From Bacteroidia bacterium (GTDB lineage: Bacteria; Bacteroidota; Bacteroidia; JANWVE01), in NCBI GenBank assembly GCA_025057675.1, contig JANWVE010000006.1, forward strand, positions 1 through 38,272: 38,272 bases of DNA. Direction: 5' to 3'. The position numbers were made by a program, and so were the translations under genes. Below the pieces are notes generated by a model. It was not told where the DNA came from and did not search any database. It was given only the letters and a program-made list of their open reading frames with translations. Below, one piece after another: positions 5,311 through 38,272 of the stretch. Position 1 is the stretch's first letter, and each line of letters starts with the position of its first letter.

Positions 5311-5346
5311 AGATAAAATGATATAAGAAATATTTTATGTTTTTTT

Positions 5347-5943
5347 GGGCGTGTCCTTGCCCACGTCTTGCTGCGCTCGTGTGGGCAAGGTCGGCGTGCT
5401 ACGGGCTGACGGTGCTGCGCCCCACCCCCTGGGCAAGAGTAAAATCGTGGGCAAGAGGCTGCGCACCAAGCCTGACGGCTTGCCCTCCGCATGCCTCACG
5501 CAAGCAGCAAGTATGCTAATCCCACTTATACAAACTTAATCTTGTAAGTATCTCAAAATGAACACTAAACAAGGTTAAAATGTATTTTGACATGGTAAAT
5601 CATTGAAAATCAATATAAAATAAAGTAAAACTTTTATATTCAGGGTTAAAGGGTTGGAAGTCCATGTATTCAAGGTTTAACCTTGTACATGCTTGAAAAT
5701 GAACACAAAACAAGATAAAACGAACGCATTTCAAACAAGGTAAAAAATTTTAATTTTGTAAGTATTTGATAATGAGCATCAAACAAGGTAAAGCAAACGT
5801 AGGTATACAAACAAGGTAAAGTATCAAAACGCTGCTGCGTGAGGCATGCGGAGGGTGCGTCAGCAGTGCGTAGCAGAGCGAAGCACCGAAGCGATAGCGC
5901 AGCCCGCAGCACGCCGACCCGAGCGCAGCGAAGGGACACGCCC
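5347..5943 (+). repeat. Dispersed composite element, copy 2 (597 bp)
   Basis: Left arm is type A with outer hairpin CCTTGCCCAC / GTGGGCAAGG, the compensatory alternative to copy 1. Right arm is type B. The core has the four-unit layout and a centre AAGTCCATGTATTCAAGG followed by TTTAACCTTG. It lies between the PstS-like gene and the convergent murC operon. Confidence 0.9.
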
Positions 5944-5972
5944 AAAAATTAAAAAAAATTGAGTCCCACTCA

Positions 5973-7948: not shown

Positions 7949-8031
7949 GAACATTTTTGATTGTTAATCTAACAGTATAGTGGATATTTTGTCTGGATAT
8001 AAAGTTTAATTTGATAGGATTTATTTTTTTG

Positions 8032-8600
8032 GGGCGTGTCCCTTCGCTGCGCTCGGGTCGGGCTACTGCGCACTGCGCGTTCGCTTCGGTGCTGCGCTTC
8101 GCTTCGCACTGCCTGACGGCATGCTTCGTATCCCTCACGCAGCGGTCTTTGGATGCTTTACATGATTTTTAGGTATATCTTTGCTTTACCTTGTTTCACT
8201 TTCATTATCAAATACTTACAAGGTTAAAATTTTTTACGTTGTTTTAACTCTGTTTATTTTATCTTGTTTTACATTGATTTTCAAACACGTATATTATTAA
8301 ATTTTGAATACATGTACTTTACACGCTATCTTAATCCTTATTAAATAAGCTTTACCTTATTTTGAATTGATTTTCAAGGATGTACAAGCTTAAAATGTGT
8401 TTTTATCTTGTCTAATATTCATTTTCGGGTACTTACAAGGTAAAAATTTCGATAGATAGGTTCAGCATACTTGTTGCGTTTTCTGCGTGAGGCATGCGGA
8501 GGGTGCGTGAGCAGTGCGCAGCACCGAAGCGATAGCGTAGCCCGCAGCACGCCGACCTTGTGGGCATGAGCGCCAGCGAAACGCCCACAAGGACACGCCC
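8032..8600 (-). repeat. Dispersed composite element, copy 3 (569 bp)
   Basis: Left arm is type C (GTCGGGCTACTGCGC..., ending GTATCCCTCACGCA). Right arm is a hybrid: type B interior with the outer hairpin CCTTGTGGGC / GCCCACAAGG. Core units are on the minus strand. It lies between the divergently transcribed murC and holB, leaving about 90 bp at each side for promoters. Confidence 0.88.
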
Positions 8601-19663: not shown

Positions 19664-19694
19664 CAAAAATAATAGAACGGTAGGTTTCGCACAA
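19664..19694 (-). promoter_or_regulatory. Promoter of the LuxE-like gene
   Basis: On the minus strand TTG (19694-19692), 20 bp, TATTTTTG (19671-19664). The ATG is 41 bp downstream, so unlike most genes here it has a real leader. A perfect 8-bp inverted repeat abuts the -33 side. Confidence 0.6.
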
Positions 19695-22253: not shown

Positions 22254-25205
22254 ATGAAATCCTTTGTTTATTTTATCCTTACTCACTTTGTCCTTTTCTC
22301 ATTTAGTCAAAGTTGGAAGAACGCATACGACAGCTGCCTTAAATACCAACAATACCAAAAATTCAAAAAGTCCATAGAATGGGGTGATAAAGCATTAGAA
22401 CTATATGATAAACAAGTTGTAACAAAAGACACTAATTACAGTAACATATTAAATACACAAGTAGAAAACTGTTATTATTCAGGACTTTATGCAAAGGGTG
22501 AGTACTATGCTAAAAAAGATAGTGCATGGACAGTGCAAAACCACAACATGAGATATTCTAACTCTTGCAATAACTTGGGATTACTATACAAAGAACAGGG
22601 TAAGTATAATCAAGCAGAAAATTTATTAAAAATCGCCCGAGAAATTACTGCCAAATTAGTAGGGGTTCAAAGTTTAGATTACGCAAGTTCATGCAATAAT
22701 TTAGCTTCCTTATATGAGGAGGAGGGTAAATATCCTGAAGCAGAACCTTTATACATAGAAGCTAAGAACATTCGTGAAAAAATGTTAGGAAAATCCCATC
22801 CTGATTACATGAACTCTTGTAATAATTTAGCGACCTTATACTATCATACGGGAAGATACTACCAAGCAGAGTTATTATTAAAAGAGACACGATCTGTCCG
22901 TGCCGAGGTCTTAGGAAAAGAGCATATAGATTATGCAAACTCATGCAATAACTTAGCTGCATTGTACCGTTCTCAGGGTAGATACCACGAAGCAGAGCTT
23001 TTGTACAAAGAAGTAAAAGAGGTTTATGTCAAAGTATTAGGTAAAGAGAGTCCTGATTATGCTAGATTGTGTAATAATTTGGCTTTTTTGTATGAAGATC
23101 AAGGTAAGTATTTAGAGTCGGAACCATTGTATAAAGAAGCAAAAGAAATTTATGCAGAAATACTTGGTAAAACTCATGTTGAATACGCTAGGACCTGTCT
23201 GAATTTAGCTTCTATTTATACATACCAGGATAAATATACGGAAGCCGAAGAATTATATATGGAAGCAAAAGACGTTTATCTTAAAGCATTAGGGGAGTTA
23301 CATCCCGAATATGCTAATTGTTGCAATAATTTAGCCTTATTATTTTATGAGCAAGGTAGATATTCTGAAGCGGAGATCTTATACTCAAAGGTAAAGCAAA
23401 CGTACATTAAAACAATAGGAAAGAGTCACCCTTGGTATGCTACACTTTGTATTAACTTAGGTCATTTGTACTCTCTCCAAAATAGATACACAGAAGCAGA
23501 AGCCCATTATACAGAAGCCAAAGATATACGTGAGCAGATATTAGGAAAGATGCATCCTGAGTATGCCGCCTGCTGCAATAATTTGGCTAAATTGTACTTA
23601 CTCCAAAACGAGTACAATAAATCTAATGTGCTATTCAAAGAGTCTCTACAAATTAAGTTTAATGAAATTCAAAATAATTTTAGAATTCTTTCTCAATACG
23701 AAAAGGAAAAATACATTCAAGCAAACATAAGTAAGTATTTTAACAGTTTTCAATTTTTTGTGTTAAAAGCACACACTCAAATACCCTCTATCACAGGGGA
23801 TAGCTATAATCTTGCAGTTAAAGAAAAGGGCTTAATTTTTCAAAGCATGGAAAAAATTAAAAATCGTATTCTCAATAGTCAAGATGAAGCACTCAAAAGA
23901 CTATATATAGAGTGGAAACTGGCTACTGATAAATATGCTAAAACACAAACCCTTACTATTACACAAAGAAAAGAAAAGAGAATTAACTTAGATAGCCTCG
24001 AGAATTATATCAACGAATTAGAAAAGCGACTTGCATTCAAAAGCGAAGATTTTGCTAATACGTTTATCCCCAAGGTAGTTACATGGGAAGATATTCAAAA
24101 AAGACTTAAAAAGAACCAAGCTGCTATTGAAATAGTCAAGGTTACTCATAGGCAGAGAATTAAAAGTAAAGATAGTATTTTGTACATGGCTTTAATTATC
24201 AAAAAGAATAGTCAATTCCCAGAGGTAGTAGTACTATCCAATGGGAACGAATTAGAAAGTCAATATCTTACTAATTACAGGCGTGTGATTGCCGCTAAAT
24301 TACAAGATAATCAAAGCTATAACGCTTTTTGGAAGCCTATATCAGACCGCCTTAAAAATATAAAAACAGTCTATTTATCCCCAGATGGAGTGTATCACCA
24401 GATTAACATATCTACCTTGTACAATCCTATGGCGAAAAAGTATGTGCTTGATGAAATTCAAGTAATTAACGTAACTAATACCAGAGATATTTTGAATGAA
24501 CGCAGTTACACTACCAAAAACAACTATTTAATTGGCAATCCCAAGTTTGACTTACAAATGAATGTGGAAAAAGATAATGAAAAGTCTAAGCAAGAGCGTA
24601 CATTTGAGGAGTTAACTCAATTAGAGGGAGCGGAAAAAGAGGTAAAGCAAATCTCCTCACTCTTGGCTAATACTACGACTGTGATAGGTTCAGCTGCTAC
24701 AGAGGAGTACATCAAATCCATTAAAAATCCCCGTATTTTACACATTGCAACACATGGATATTTTAAGAAAGAGCAGTATCAAAGTTCTACGCAGGCTATG
24801 TTGAATGCAGGACTTTTATTTGCAGGGGTGGTAGACTATGATAGAATGGAAATCCGCCCTTTAGAAAAAGAAGATGGTAAATTGACCGCTTTTGAGGTAA
24901 TGAATATGGAGTTAGATAGTACAGAATTAGTAGTGTTAAGTGCGTGTGAAACAGGATTAGGTCTGGCAAGCAAAGAAGGAGTATATGGTTTACAACGGGC
25001 GTTTAAGGTAGCAGGAGTGCAGAGTATTATTATGAGTTTATGGAAAGTGAATGACGAAGCTACGCAGATGCTTATGACTCAATTTTACGAAAATTGGCAG
25101 AGAAAAGGTATGAACAAACGTGAAGCATTTCAGACCGCACAGAAACAAATCCGTAAGCAGTATAAAGAACCATATTACTGGGGTGCTTTTGTGATGATTG
25201 AATGA
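22254..25205 (+). CDS. TPR-CHAT protein (caspase-like protease domain)
   Basis: 983 aa. A signal-peptide-like N-terminus (MKSFVYFILTHFVLFSFSQ) suggests export. Nine consecutive 42-residue kinesin-light-chain-type TPRs span about residues 99-477 (each ...SCNNLA.LY..QGKY.EAE.LY.EAK...LGK.HP.YA). A helical linker follows, and then a CHAT domain in the last about 330 residues with the clan CD protease dyad: H834 in HIATHGYF and C898 in LSACETGLG, plus GVYGLQRAFKVAGVQSIIMSLWKVND. The protein could be a proteolytic effector switched by binding to the TPR array; the substrate is unknown. A near-consensus TATATTTA lies 4 bp before the ATG. In Craspase a TPR-CHAT partner is cytoplasmic and next to gRAMP, which is not present here. 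Confidence 0.9.
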   Translation: MKSFVYFILTHFVLFSFSQSWKNAYDSCLKYQQYQKFKKSIEWGDKALELYDKQVVTKDTNYSNILNTQVENCYYSGLYAKGEYYAKKDSAWTVQNHNMRYSNSCNNLGLLYKEQGKYNQAENLLKIAREITAKLVGVQSLDYASSCNNLASLYEEEGKYPEAEPLYIEAKNIREKMLGKSHPDYMNSCNNLATLYYHTGRYYQAELLLKETRSVRAEVLGKEHIDYANSCNNLAALYRSQGRYHEAELLYKEVKEVYVKVLGKESPDYARLCNNLAFLYEDQGKYLESEPLYKEAKEIYAEILGKTHVEYARTCLNLASIYTYQDKYTEAEELYMEAKDVYLKALGELHPEYANCCNNLALLFYEQGRYSEAEILYSKVKQTYIKTIGKSHPWYATLCINLGHLYSLQNRYTEAEAHYTEAKDIREQILGKMHPEYAACCNNLAKLYLLQNEYNKSNVLFKESLQIKFNEIQNNFRILSQYEKEKYIQANISKYFNSFQFFVLKAHTQIPSITGDSYNLAVKEKGLIFQSMEKIKNRILNSQDEALKRLYIEWKLATDKYAKTQTLTITQRKEKRINLDSLENYINELEKRLAFKSEDFANTFIPKVVTWEDIQKRLKKNQAAIEIVKVTHRQRIKSKDSILYMALIIKKNSQFPEVVVLSNGNELESQYLTNYRRVIAAKLQDNQSYNAFWKPISDRLKNIKTVYLSPDGVYHQINISTLYNPMAKKYVLDEIQVINVTNTRDILNERSYTTKNNYLIGNPKFDLQMNVEKDNEKSKQERTFEELTQLEGAEKEVKQISSLLANTTTVIGSAATEEYIKSIKNPRILHIATHGYFKKEQYQSSTQAMLNAGLLFAGVVDYDRMEIRPLEKEDGKLTAFEVMNMELDSTELVVLSACETGLGLASKEGVYGLQRAFKVAGVQSIIMSLWKVNDEATQMLMTQFYENWQRKGMNKREAFQTAQKQIRKQYKEPYYWGAFVMIE

Positions 25206-27885: not shown

Positions 27886-28511
27886 GGGCGTGTCCTTGTG
27901 GGCGTTTCGCTGCGCTCATGCCCACAAGGTCGGCGTGCTGCGGGCTACGCTTTCGCTTCGGTGCTGCGCTTCGCTACGCACTGGGCTAACGCCCACCCTC
28001 CGCATGCCTCACGCAAACAGCAAGTAGACTAAGATCACTTACATAAAACTTAATCTTGCAAGTGTCTCAAAATAAATGCTAAACAAGATGAAAATATATT
28101 TTTACCTTGCCAATCCTTGAAAATCAATTCAAAATAAAGTAAAAGTTGATTATTCAGGGTAAAAGAGATACAAAAAGTCCATATATTCAAAGTTTAATCT
28201 TGTAAGTAATCGAAAATGAATACAAAACAAGATACATCCATCGCGGTTAAAAAAAGTAAAAAATTTTAATATTGTAAATGTTTGATAATCAACATAAAAC
28301 AGGGTAAATCAAACGCATGTATGTAAATCAGGTAAAACATCCTAAGGCTGCTGCGTGAGGCATGCGGAGGGCGTGCGTCAGCACGGTGCAAAGCCCCCGT
28401 ACACGCTTTCACTCTTGCCCAAGGGGCGGGTGGGTGGGCGTAGCACCGTTAGCCCGCAGCACGCCGACCTTGCCCACACAAGCGCAGCGAGACGTGGGCA
28501 AGGACACGCCC
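27886..28511 (+). repeat. Dispersed composite element, copy 10 (626 bp, longest)
   Basis: Left arm is a hybrid (outer hairpin CCTTGTGGGC / GCCCACAAGG, type B interior extended by CTGGGCTAACGCCC). Right arm is type A with CCTTGCCCAC / GTGGGCAAGG. It is the only copy whose long arm lies on the downstream side of the core, so its arms look exchanged. It begins 6 bp after the murA stop and ends 7 bp before the stop of the convergent Rieske gene. Confidence 0.9.
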
Positions 28512-28518
28512 AAAAAAC

Positions 28519-33422: not shown

Positions 33423-34019
33423 GGGCGTGCCCTTGTGGGCGTTTCGCTTTGCTCATGCCCACAAGGTCGGCGTGCTACGGGCTAACGGTGCTACGCCCAC
33501 TCCCGGGCAAGGGTTTGAGTGTGTGAGGGGGCTTCGCACCAAGCCTAACGGCTTGCCCTCCGCATGCCTCACGCAAGCTTCCAATGAACTAACTCCACTT
33601 GTTCAAACCTTGATCTTGTAAGTACCTGAAAGTGAATACTAAACAAGATTAAAATATACTTTAACCTTGTAAATTATTGAAAATCAATTGAAAATAAGGT
33701 AAAAATTGCATATTCAAGGTTAAAATGTTTTGTAGAGTTCATGTGTTTAAGGTTTTACTTTGTAAGTATTTGAAAATCAATAAAAAAGATGAAATGAATA
33801 CAATTAAAACAAGCTAAAAAAATTTAATCTTGTAAATACTTGATAATCAATATCAAACAAGATAAAACAAGTAGATGCATGAAAATAAGGTAAAACATCC
33901 AAAAGCTGCTTGCGTGAGGGATACGGAGCATGCTGTTAGGCAGTGCGGAGCGTAGCGCAGCACCGAGCGTTAGCGTAGTGCGGAGTAGCCCGACCCGAGC
34001 ATCAGCGAGGGACACGCCC
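33423..34019 (+). repeat. Dispersed composite element, copy 12 (597 bp)
   Basis: Left arm type A with outer hairpin CCTTGTGGGC / GCCCACAAGG and variant terminus GGGCGTGCCC; right arm type C. Core on the plus strand, with centre GTTCATGTGTTTAAGG and unit 4 carrying TTGATAATCAA. Lies between divergent mntH and the PD40/OmpA gene. Confidence 0.9.
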
Positions 34020-34129
34020 CAAGCAAAAACATAAAAAATCACTTTTACCGTATATTTGCTCACAAAGGTGAGTGTAGAAAAACTACAACTTTTTTTGATA
34101 AAGTTTAGACTTAGAAATGAAATATACAT

Positions 34130-35867: not shown

Positions 35868-37778
35868 ATGCGAATTAACCCACTATTACTCTGGGTACTA
35901 CTTCTACCTCACTACATGCTTTTATCACAGCAAGATACAGCATGGACAACCTCTCCTATCATTATCATTGATACCTCTTATCAAAAATATGAAGGCACTA
36001 CTACCACCCTATTTGCTGATAGCTTGGGTAACTATCAAAACAATGGGCTACAACTACAAGATGCACTCATACACCTTAACAGCGTGTACATTCGTAGCTA
36101 CGGTTCTCACAGCGGAATTAAAACTTTCTCTCTGCGAGGCTTAGCTTCCAACCAAACAAATGTAGTAATAGCTGGCATACCTCTACAATCTGCACAACAA
36201 GGCAGCTTTAACTTAGCCAATTTCTCATTAGATGATTTTGAACAAATATCCGTTTCGCAAGGTAGCAGTGATATCCATTCTAATACTTTATCGGGAAACA
36301 TAGAACTCAATTTTACCCGCCCAACTTACAAGGTAAAATGTAAGTTAGGCTTAGGAAGTTTTGAAAACTACTTTGGTCATATTTCTGTTCCGCTTAAAAA
36401 GCAAAAAAATAATTTCTCTAAAATCCAACTACGGTACGAACAAGCCCGAGATAACTATCCTTTTGTATATCAAAATCAAACCTTCTACCGAGAGAATGCG
36501 CAATTTAGGCAATATCAAGCCAATGCAGTTTGGGTCAGAGAACATAAAAAATGGACTTTTACCATTTATTCAAAAGCTTATACGAATGATAATGGCGTAC
36601 CTGATGCAATTGTTCATAATCACCTTAGTTCTACACAAAAAAAATTACAAGAACAAGATACTTGGACAATGTTCAAGATCAAAAAGGTTGACAAAAAAGG
36701 ATTTCAAGAAATTGGGGCAAGTTATCATTTTAATCATTTGGGGTATTTAACCCCGTTAGTACGTTTCAAGTATGTTAATCATGACCTTTTACTGCAATAT
36801 CAAGCTGGTTATTTGTACAAGCGTCATTATGTTAAAATGCATGTACAAGGTTTGTATGCGCATCTTGAAGGAGATAATTTAAGTATTCGTTTGCAAAGGA
36901 TACCTTTTGTGTATCGTAGTCAAGTGAATGGGGCTGTAAGCCATGCTTATACGTGGCAAAAAGACCGAGCGACTTTGTACTGTGCCACATTTCAAACGGC
37001 GTACAGAATAAATTTTATTTCAGATTTTAGTCCTATGCACAATGTTTCTTGCTATGCAAATTTGTTTTTGTACAAAAAACAATACTTGTATGCCAATTTA
37101 AGCTATACGGCTCGCATTCCATCGTTTAATGAAATGTATTACTTCGGCTATGGAAACCCTGATATTTTACCTGAACGTACTCAAAACATGCAGATAGGTT
37201 ATAGTGGAAGTATTGATAAATTAAGACAGGTATTGTACAAAGCTGAACTTTTTTATCATATCATTCATGATAAAATTGTGAGTATTCCCCAAAATCCCGT
37301 GATATGGAGTACTTATTCCATAGGTAAGGTTATCAGTAAGGGTTTTGAGGTGGATGTACAATATCAACCGCATAAGAGTATGGTTATACACTATGGGTAT
37401 ACGCGCACGGATGCCCGAGATGCTTTAACTAAATCTTTATTACCGTATACCCCTGTGGAAATGATTAAATTACAAGCACAATATCAATTTTTTAAGGTAT
37501 TTACCGTACAAGGTGCGTATCAGTATAATGGATATAGGTTTAGCAGCGTTCAAAATGACAGGAGTAGTTATTTAGAGCCTTATCACATTTTAGACTTTAA
37601 TATAACTTACCGTATGCGTTACTGCGGACAAGGAATTCAGGTTAGGATAGACATCAATAATTTGCTCAATGTGCAGTATGAGGTAATTAAGGGGTATGTT
37701 ATGCCTCGTAGGTCTTATGTTTTGAGTTTTTTATGGGCGTGTCCCTCGCTGCGCTCGGGTCGGCGTGCTACTGGCTGA
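35868..37778 (+). CDS. TonB-dependent outer-membrane receptor with element-derived C-terminus
   Basis: 636 aa. Signal peptide MRINPLLLWVLLLPHYMLLSQ. A plug domain follows (about 40-150: LQLQDALIHLNSVYIRSYGSHSGIKTFSLRGLASNQTNVVIAGIPLQ, DDFEQISVSQGSSDI) and then a 22-strand-type barrel with many alternating aromatic strands, including the conserved late IPSFNEMYYFGYGNPDILPERTQNMQIGY. There is no carboxypeptidase-like N-terminal domain and no SusD partner, so it is probably a vitamin, siderophore or metal receptor of BtuB-like type. The frame continues past the last strand (RRSYVLSFLW) into the dispersed element at 37735, which supplies the final 14 residues and the TGA. This replaces the usual C-terminal aromatic end. 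Confidence 0.85.
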   Translation: MRINPLLLWVLLLPHYMLLSQQDTAWTTSPIIIIDTSYQKYEGTTTTLFADSLGNYQNNGLQLQDALIHLNSVYIRSYGSHSGIKTFSLRGLASNQTNVVIAGIPLQSAQQGSFNLANFSLDDFEQISVSQGSSDIHSNTLSGNIELNFTRPTYKVKCKLGLGSFENYFGHISVPLKKQKNNFSKIQLRYEQARDNYPFVYQNQTFYRENAQFRQYQANAVWVREHKKWTFTIYSKAYTNDNGVPDAIVHNHLSSTQKKLQEQDTWTMFKIKKVDKKGFQEIGASYHFNHLGYLTPLVRFKYVNHDLLLQYQAGYLYKRHYVKMHVQGLYAHLEGDNLSIRLQRIPFVYRSQVNGAVSHAYTWQKDRATLYCATFQTAYRINFISDFSPMHNVSCYANLFLYKKQYLYANLSYTARIPSFNEMYYFGYGNPDILPERTQNMQIGYSGSIDKLRQVLYKAELFYHIIHDKIVSIPQNPVIWSTYSIGKVISKGFEVDVQYQPHKSMVIHYGYTRTDARDALTKSLLPYTPVEMIKLQAQYQFFKVFTVQGAYQYNGYRFSSVQNDRSSYLEPYHILDFNITYRMRYCGQGIQVRIDINNLLNVQYEVIKGYVMPRRSYVLSFLWACPSLRSGRRATG

Positions 37779-38040
37779 CGGTGCTGCGCCCCGCCCGCTC
37801 ACCCCTTGGGCAAGAGTTTGAGTGTGGGCGAGGGGCTTCACACCGTGCTGACGCACGCCCTTCGCATGCCTCACGCAACCAGCTATTAAGCTAAACCCAC
37901 CTATTCAAAATGTAATCTTGTAAGTACTTGACTATCAAAATTAAACAAGCTAATAAATGTCCTTTAACCTTGTAAATTATTGAAAATGAACACTAAACAA
38001 GGTAAAAGTAGGGTAGTTCAGGGTAAAATGTTGTGGCAGT
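37735..38040 (+). repeat. Dispersed composite element, copy 13, interrupted at the CRISPR array
   Basis: Left arm type A with a CTCGC-type outer hairpin; its first 44 bp are read as the end of the TonB-receptor gene. The core has unit 1, unit 2 and the first part of the centre (GGGTAAAATGTTGTGGCAG, comparable to the centre of copy 12). It then stops where CRISPR repeat 1 begins; units 3-4 and the downstream arm are not in the window. Confidence 0.82.
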
Positions 38041-38272
38041 TTTGTAAATACCGAGGAATCTCGGTATTTTTGTACAGCATTTACAACCCCGTTCGCAGAC
38101 ATCTTTGTGAACTTCCCGTTGTAAATACCGAGGAATCTCGGTATTTTTGTACAGCATTTACAACACTGTGACGGGTGACGATAATGTCAAACCTGGTTGT
38201 AAATACCGAGGAATCTCGGTATTTTTGTACAGCATTTACAACCAAAACTACTGCCAATCAAACCTTTAATGA
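38041..38272 (+). CRISPR. CRISPR array, first three repeats (probable type II-C), continues beyond the window
   Basis: Three 47-bp repeats at 38041-38087, 38118-38164 and 38196-38242, identical except that the first base of repeat 1 is T instead of G. Spacers are 30, 31 and at least 30 bp (38088-38117, 38165-38195, 38243-38272, the last cut by the window end). Repeat ends are perfect inverted repeats GTTGTAAAT / ATTTACAAC. An internal perfect 10-bp stem AAATACCGAG / CTCGGTATTT has a 4-base loop. Positions 2-4 (TTG) and 25-32 (TATTTTTG) form a promoter. A 47-bp repeat with ~30-bp spacers is typical of type II-C in Bacteroidota; no cas gene or tracrRNA is in the window, so the type is an inference. 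Strand is from the promoter. Confidence 0.93.

Follow-up and report, generated by a model that had tools for sequence, protein, structure and literature searches.

Repeats of a type II-C-derived CRISPR array in a Bacteroidia genome probably each carry a Bacteroidota sigma-A promoter

We analysed a contig of 38,272 nucleotides from a Bacteroidia bacterium (hereafter the window) that stops inside a CRISPR array. What the window shows is probably the end, distal to the leader, of an array that derives from a type II-C system and has a Bacteroidota sigma-A promoter (TTG, 20 bp and TATTTTTG) in each of its repeats; we give this joint reading, based on the sequence, a probability of about 0.74. The promoter consensus is found in every repeat, on the strand that gives the crRNA and directed at the leader, which is the arrangement of a repeat-embedded promoter of the II-C type.

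The window holds three repeats of 47 bp on the forward strand, at 38041..38087, 38118..38164 and 38196..38242. They are separated by spacers of 30 nt (38088..38117) and 31 nt (38165..38195), all on the same strand, and a third spacer (38243..38272) is either truncated or terminated where the contig stops; the remaining array and its leader lie outside the assembled contig. Repeat 1 is the leader-distal terminal copy, at the oldest end as judged by the position of the leader, and its first base is changed from G to T. To its left lies the leader-distal flank (37879..38040). The locus has the hallmarks of a CRISPR array, i.e. repeats of constant length and spacers of 27-31 nt that are all different within their own genome. 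The same repeat is found on contigs C2, C14, C24, C119, C293, C303 (the window) and C309 of this genome, its 3' part recurs at the ends of contigs C5, C84 and C294, and 42 close copies are spread over several contigs. The spacers gave no convincing match to phages or plasmids, spacers 1, 2 and 3 of the window had no exact match in IMG/VR (five spacer patterns were tried in total), and none of the viral contigs searched carries the repeat. Spacers of the arrays on C14 and C24 (loci L020 and L021) overlap in sequence (ATGTTTTTACTCGCTTT and ATGTTTTTGCTTGCTTT), which suggests a common target gene in two related viruses; when the two were joined into one pattern, IMG/VR gave no exact match.

In all three repeats, TTG at repeat positions 2-4 is followed after 20 bp by TATTTTTG at positions 25-32, exactly as the sequence-only reading had described, and the changed first base of repeat 1 turns TTG into TTTG. 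The -33 element TTG lies at 38042..38044, 38119-38121 and 38197-38199, and the -7 element, which fits TAnnTTTG, at 38065..38072, 38142-38149 and 38220-38227, all on the forward strand. Element sequences and their 20-bp spacing agree with the sigma-A consensus of Bacteroidota, which combines TAnnTTTG at -7 with TTTG or TTG near -33 (PMC7366714). The opposite strand of the repeat has no match to the strict two-part motif. This strict pattern occurs at 16 sites in the 38-kb window, three of which are the repeats, against 5.0 in shuffled sequences; from the shuffle rate, we estimate that the chance of a strict match in one 47-bp repeat on a given strand is well under 1%. The suggestion that neighbouring genes use the same pattern holds for a few genes only: four strict sites are found no more than 200 bp upstream of a start, and an identical -7 element is found upstream of one gene (site at 19694, reverse strand). 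A single motif match is modest evidence, and it is the comparison across the class that carries the weight.

For this comparison, we fetched 60 type II Cas1 loci from Bacteroidia, 45 of which yielded a repeat consensus, and scored 36 long repeats, including two from the genus of the window, for the strict motif TTG-N17..22-TAnnTTTG. The motif is present on the crRNA strand in 17 of the 36 long II-C repeats and on the other strand in none (0/36), against a mean of 0.30 and a maximum of 3 in shuffles. Once near-identical repeats are removed, 12 of 27 have it (shuffle mean 0.18, maximum 3), and shuffling only positions 19 to the end of these distinct repeats still gives a mean of just 0.35 (maximum 3). 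Only about half of the long repeats thus have the strict form, as do 0 of 11 short ones. The usual -7 element in the class is TATCTTTG, at positions 23-31 and 15-17 bp before the repeat end; it is also found upstream of cas9 in a sister genome. Column information across the long repeats climbs again over the CTTTG of this element. Clear anti-repeats located upstream of cas9 end at repeat positions 16-28, mostly 21-24. Because most of them stop short of the -7 element or just where it begins, pairing with the tracrRNA does not explain it.

Within the genus, TAnnTTTG is retained (as TATTTTTG or TAATTTTG) by all 11 repeat variants, although the central part is entirely different in two families of repeats. 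The motif is present in the three window repeats and in every group of copies of the hairpin arrays (described below) of the same genome. In one array of the sister genome G001 (contig C202), TTG is lost in two of six repeats. The decay of terminal repeats is uneven, with mismatch rates of 0.37 at positions 1-15, 0.06 at 22-32 and 0.02 beyond. Typically, the first 10-20 bases are lost and the rest is usually kept; TAnnTTTG is intact in 12 of 15 terminal repeats. Many decayed copies have kept the -7 element and lost the -33 element, and the latter may matter little. We considered this decay as proof of a promoter and rejected it as such, since the bases downstream of the promoter are kept too. 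It fits a retained promoter, as argued by others for terminal repeats (PMC12080349), and counts as consistent evidence only.

The direction of the putative promoter can be read from the other arrays of the genome. An AT-rich leader starting with AGATACTGTTGTTAAATGCTG follows the last repeat, in the forward sense of the window, on seven contigs, and the first, leader-distal repeats are degenerate on C293 and C309. With the leader 3' of the last repeat and decay at the other end, the promoter is directed at the leader, an arrangement known from II-C arrays (PMC12080349, PMC8092290). The crRNA strand is set by the anti-repeats of two tracrRNAs, and it is the promoter strand. One of these belongs to the sister genome G002, where cas9, type II cas1 and cas2 are followed by the leader and one repeat with the same ends; this tracrRNA, encoded on the other strand upstream of cas9, pairs with repeat positions 1-23. 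The other, a homologue, belongs to the genome of the window and lies at the end of contig C188, where cas9 is present with its first 68 codons. In both tracrRNAs seen in the genus, TATATTTG stands just before the anti-repeat. Transcription of the array from the opposite strand, which had been named as one of two observations that would speak against promoters in the repeats, is made unlikely by the anti-repeat strand in the sister genomes. The proposal of a Bacteroidota-type promoter in each repeat thus gains from its lying on the strand that would give a functional crRNA, from its pointing leaderward and from the lack of another recognisable promoter in the flanks and leaders of its own genome; it needs correction in that the array is not a standard Cas9 array and in that repeat promoters are not new for Bacteroidota.

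As to the check proposed, of locating cas9, cas1, cas2 and tracrRNA nearby, no cas genes adjoin the window array; the tracrRNA and the cas9 start lie elsewhere, on C188. The operon typical of II-C, with cas9, cas1 and cas2 but neither csn2 nor cas4, is present in G002. Searches of the own genome (assembly 91% complete) with cas1 and cas9 models found neither gene. An absence of cas genes, suggested by negative results with Cas9, Cas1 and HNH models, was rejected when the tracrRNA of the sister genome, used as a query, retrieved the tracrRNA and cas9 start at the contig end. Some other cas loci encountered in the search deserve mention. G002 has a second Cas1 that is not of type II (contig C145), which means that the genus has a further CRISPR system. 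At a contig end in G001 (locus L043, contig C255), the place directly after cas1, at which cas2 is expected, is taken by a dispersed inverted-repeat element. A short contig in a genome labelled as Bacteroidia (locus L134, G083 C28) has a Neisseria-like repeat of 36-37 bp that ends in CTACAATC, together with a distant type II Cas1; it is either a contamination or a transfer.

The array is not an ordinary II-C Cas9 array: its repeat does not pair with the tracrRNA of its own genome, and it lacks adjacent cas genes; it is better described as derived from II-C. In place of the segment that pairs with the tracrRNA, the repeat holds an internal palindrome, AAATACCGAG-GAAT-CTCGGTATTT (38046..38069 in repeat 1, forward strand), which forms a hairpin of 10 bp: at positions 10-24, the tracrRNA-pairing stretch, there is instead one arm of a perfect hairpin with its loop and the return strand. 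The window repeat folds at -17.4 kcal/mol (z -6.28), against an average of -5.8 (sd 2.9) for 35 other long II-C repeats. Co-folding with its own tracrRNA brings a gain of -1.3 kcal/mol, compared with -25 to -26 kcal/mol for the Cas9-type repeats of G001 and G002, i.e. the window repeat lacks the pairing to tracrRNA that is expected in type II-C. Repeats in the genus fall into two families that share their ends and their promoter and have related leaders: the Cas9 family, whose repeats pair with the tracrRNA, and the hairpin family, whose repeats do not. G001 holds both, with Cas9-type arrays that have five leaders and one hairpin array. There are at least seven hairpin arrays in the genome of the window, located among housekeeping genes, and the genes beside them include no effector and are ordinary (RNase R-like, YicC-like, semialdehyde dehydrogenase, ABC transporter and others). 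The Cas13a model NF038188, the one Cas13 family covered by this test, had no match in the three genomes of the genus. The repeat hairpin was also considered as an intrinsic terminator; a terminator scan called none there, although it extended the stem into the T run. In a broader view of the genus, each of the three genomes has several separate arrays; the repeat variants are specific to each array, the leader is shared, and most of the arrays lie among housekeeping genes (contigs C2, C5, C14, C24, C84, C293 and C294 in G000; C27, C81, C128, C153 and C173 in G001; C22, C71 and C111 in G002).

A promoter in the repeats is the most probable of several ways to account for these patterns. Integrases read motifs in CRISPR repeats, and TAnnTTTG could have been conserved as a sequence ruler for spacer integration by Cas1-Cas2, resembling a promoter in looks only. 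The ends and the length of the repeat are indeed conserved along with the motif. Yet the sequence of the motif and its spacing from TTG (18-20 bp) match the sigma-A promoter of the phylum, on one strand only, and about half of the long repeats in the class do without the strict form although their loci have Cas1. We regard an integration ruler as unlikely. Even less probable, in our assessment, is that a promoter outside the array yields a single long precursor, as in most CRISPR types, and that the repeat motif is idle. Two leaders of Cas9-type arrays in G001 (C128 and C173) do carry the strict motif pointing into the array. However, TAnnTTTG is absent from the seven leaders of the own genome, scanned toward the array, and from the array strand of the 250 nt before repeat 1 in the left flank of the window. 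Furthermore, transcription from leader to array would give antisense crRNAs, judged by the anti-repeat strand of the tracrRNA, and RNA reads of Flavobacterium columnare go toward the leader (PMC8092290).

A different concern is that the hairpin-type arrays, including that of the window, could be functionless relics, in which case the promoter would be irrelevant here. This is doubtful, but it weighs more than the two previous alternatives. The window repeat has lost its pairing with the resident tracrRNA, no effector adjoins the arrays, and a search for a second anti-repeat, allowing up to 3 mismatches in 21 bases, found none. Against this, at least seven leaders stand next to perfect leader-proximal repeats and unique spacers, suggesting recent acquisition, and the three repeat variants of the own genome all retain the promoter and the hairpin (with one G-C to G-U change and one loop change). 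The functional counterpart would be a second class of arrays that split from the Cas9 arrays, keeping the leader, the repeat ends and the promoter of II-C while the pairing segment became a hairpin. Each repeat would start one crRNA and its hairpin would define the 3' end of the previous one, yielding ready-made crRNAs without tracrRNA pairing or RNase III, for use by another effector or by Cas9 in an unusual way. We put this forward tentatively, as a rather improbable idea. A further idea, that the arrays travel inside an element resembling a MITE, was weakened by the number of arms of that element, which occur paired about 12 times in the window alone. Since paired arms are so frequent, an intergenic array would often lie inside an element.

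Returning to sigma-A promoters in the repeats, the strong sequence evidence leads us to propose that sigma-A binds each repeat. Transcription would start some 5-8 bases after the -7 element, around repeat position 37-40 (38077-38080 in repeat 1). The predicted transcript would begin with about 8-11 repeat bases, continue through the spacer into the 5' part of the repeat that follows, and run leaderward, as follows from the leader position and the anti-repeat strand. The crRNAs would thus be made one by one. Those with Cas9-type repeats would be matured by the tracrRNA, whereas in the hairpin family the 3' end of the crRNA may be set by the hairpin, or another effector may read it. Because the leader and the repeat ends are shared, the hairpin arrays most likely gained their spacers through the II-C Cas1-Cas2 acting in trans.

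In Neisseria meningitidis, the -10 element lies at the 3' end of a repeat of 36 bp. The present arrays resemble those of N. meningitidis and Campylobacter jejuni in having a promoter in each repeat, the leader and new spacers at the far end and a degenerate first repeat, but the class and position of the promoter differ: here the -7 element occupies 23-32 and leaves 15-17 bp of repeat downstream. Repeat promoters, together with a leader and new spacers at the far end and a degenerate first repeat, have been described as a general feature of II-C (PMC12080349). Among Bacteroidota, a repeat promoter was proposed in F. columnare from the -33 TTG and eight RNA-seq reads that run toward the leader (PMC8092290), and one was also proposed for Flavobacterium psychrophilum (PMC10309648). 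In Riemerella, by another prediction method, the authors found no promoter in the repeats (PMC5006608). In the open-licence literature, one paper on II-C arrays uses TAnnTTTG for the promoter of cas9. The two Flavobacterium systems share with ours the phylum, repeats of 46-47 bp, TTG about 33 bp before the spacer, leaderward transcription (proposed or seen) and the cas9-cas1-cas2 operon, found here in a sister genome. They differ in that their papers name TTG only, whereas we find the -7 TAnnTTTG too, across the class, and in that the window repeat is of the hairpin form and does not pair with the resident tracrRNA. Hence, repeat promoters in Bacteroidota are not new; what is added here is the complete two-part element and its conservation across the class.

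The hairpin array family is a more open question than the promoter. The closest likeness is the VI-B array of F. columnare, which is served in trans by the II-C Cas1-Cas2 (PMC8092290): in both cases one genome has two array families with shared leader and repeat features, one of which has a self-folding repeat and lacks its own cas1-cas2. The differences are that here the Cas13a model is without a match, several arrays are dispersed and the promoter is kept, whereas VI-B repeats are reportedly promoterless. The family offers a testable case, since the promoter, leader and ends of II-C were kept while the match to the tracrRNA was lost, pointing to a hidden effector or a new mode of guiding Cas9. 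Use of the motif would make a large share of the II-C arrays of Bacteroidota independent of a leader promoter, with every spacer, old or new, expressed from its own start. This would also fix the crRNA strand and hence the side of the PAM; some annotations (e.g. that of Riemerella) assume a leader promoter.

Two other features of the window are worth describing. The left arm of a dispersed GC-rich inverted-repeat element (37728..37878, forward strand) lies before the array flank and is not part of the promoter. These elements have inverted arms of about 120-170 bp with the outer end GGGCGTGTCC and a short AT-rich interior. Their paired arms (e.g. 981-1592, 5340-5948, 8019-8590, 27896-28517 and 33433-34022) place them in nearly all intergenic regions of the window, and they are found throughout the genus at roughly one per 3 kb, so abundant that they would make up a considerable part of the genome. 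Finally, the region 22254-25205 encodes a large protein that combines tetratricopeptide repeats with a CHAT protease domain.
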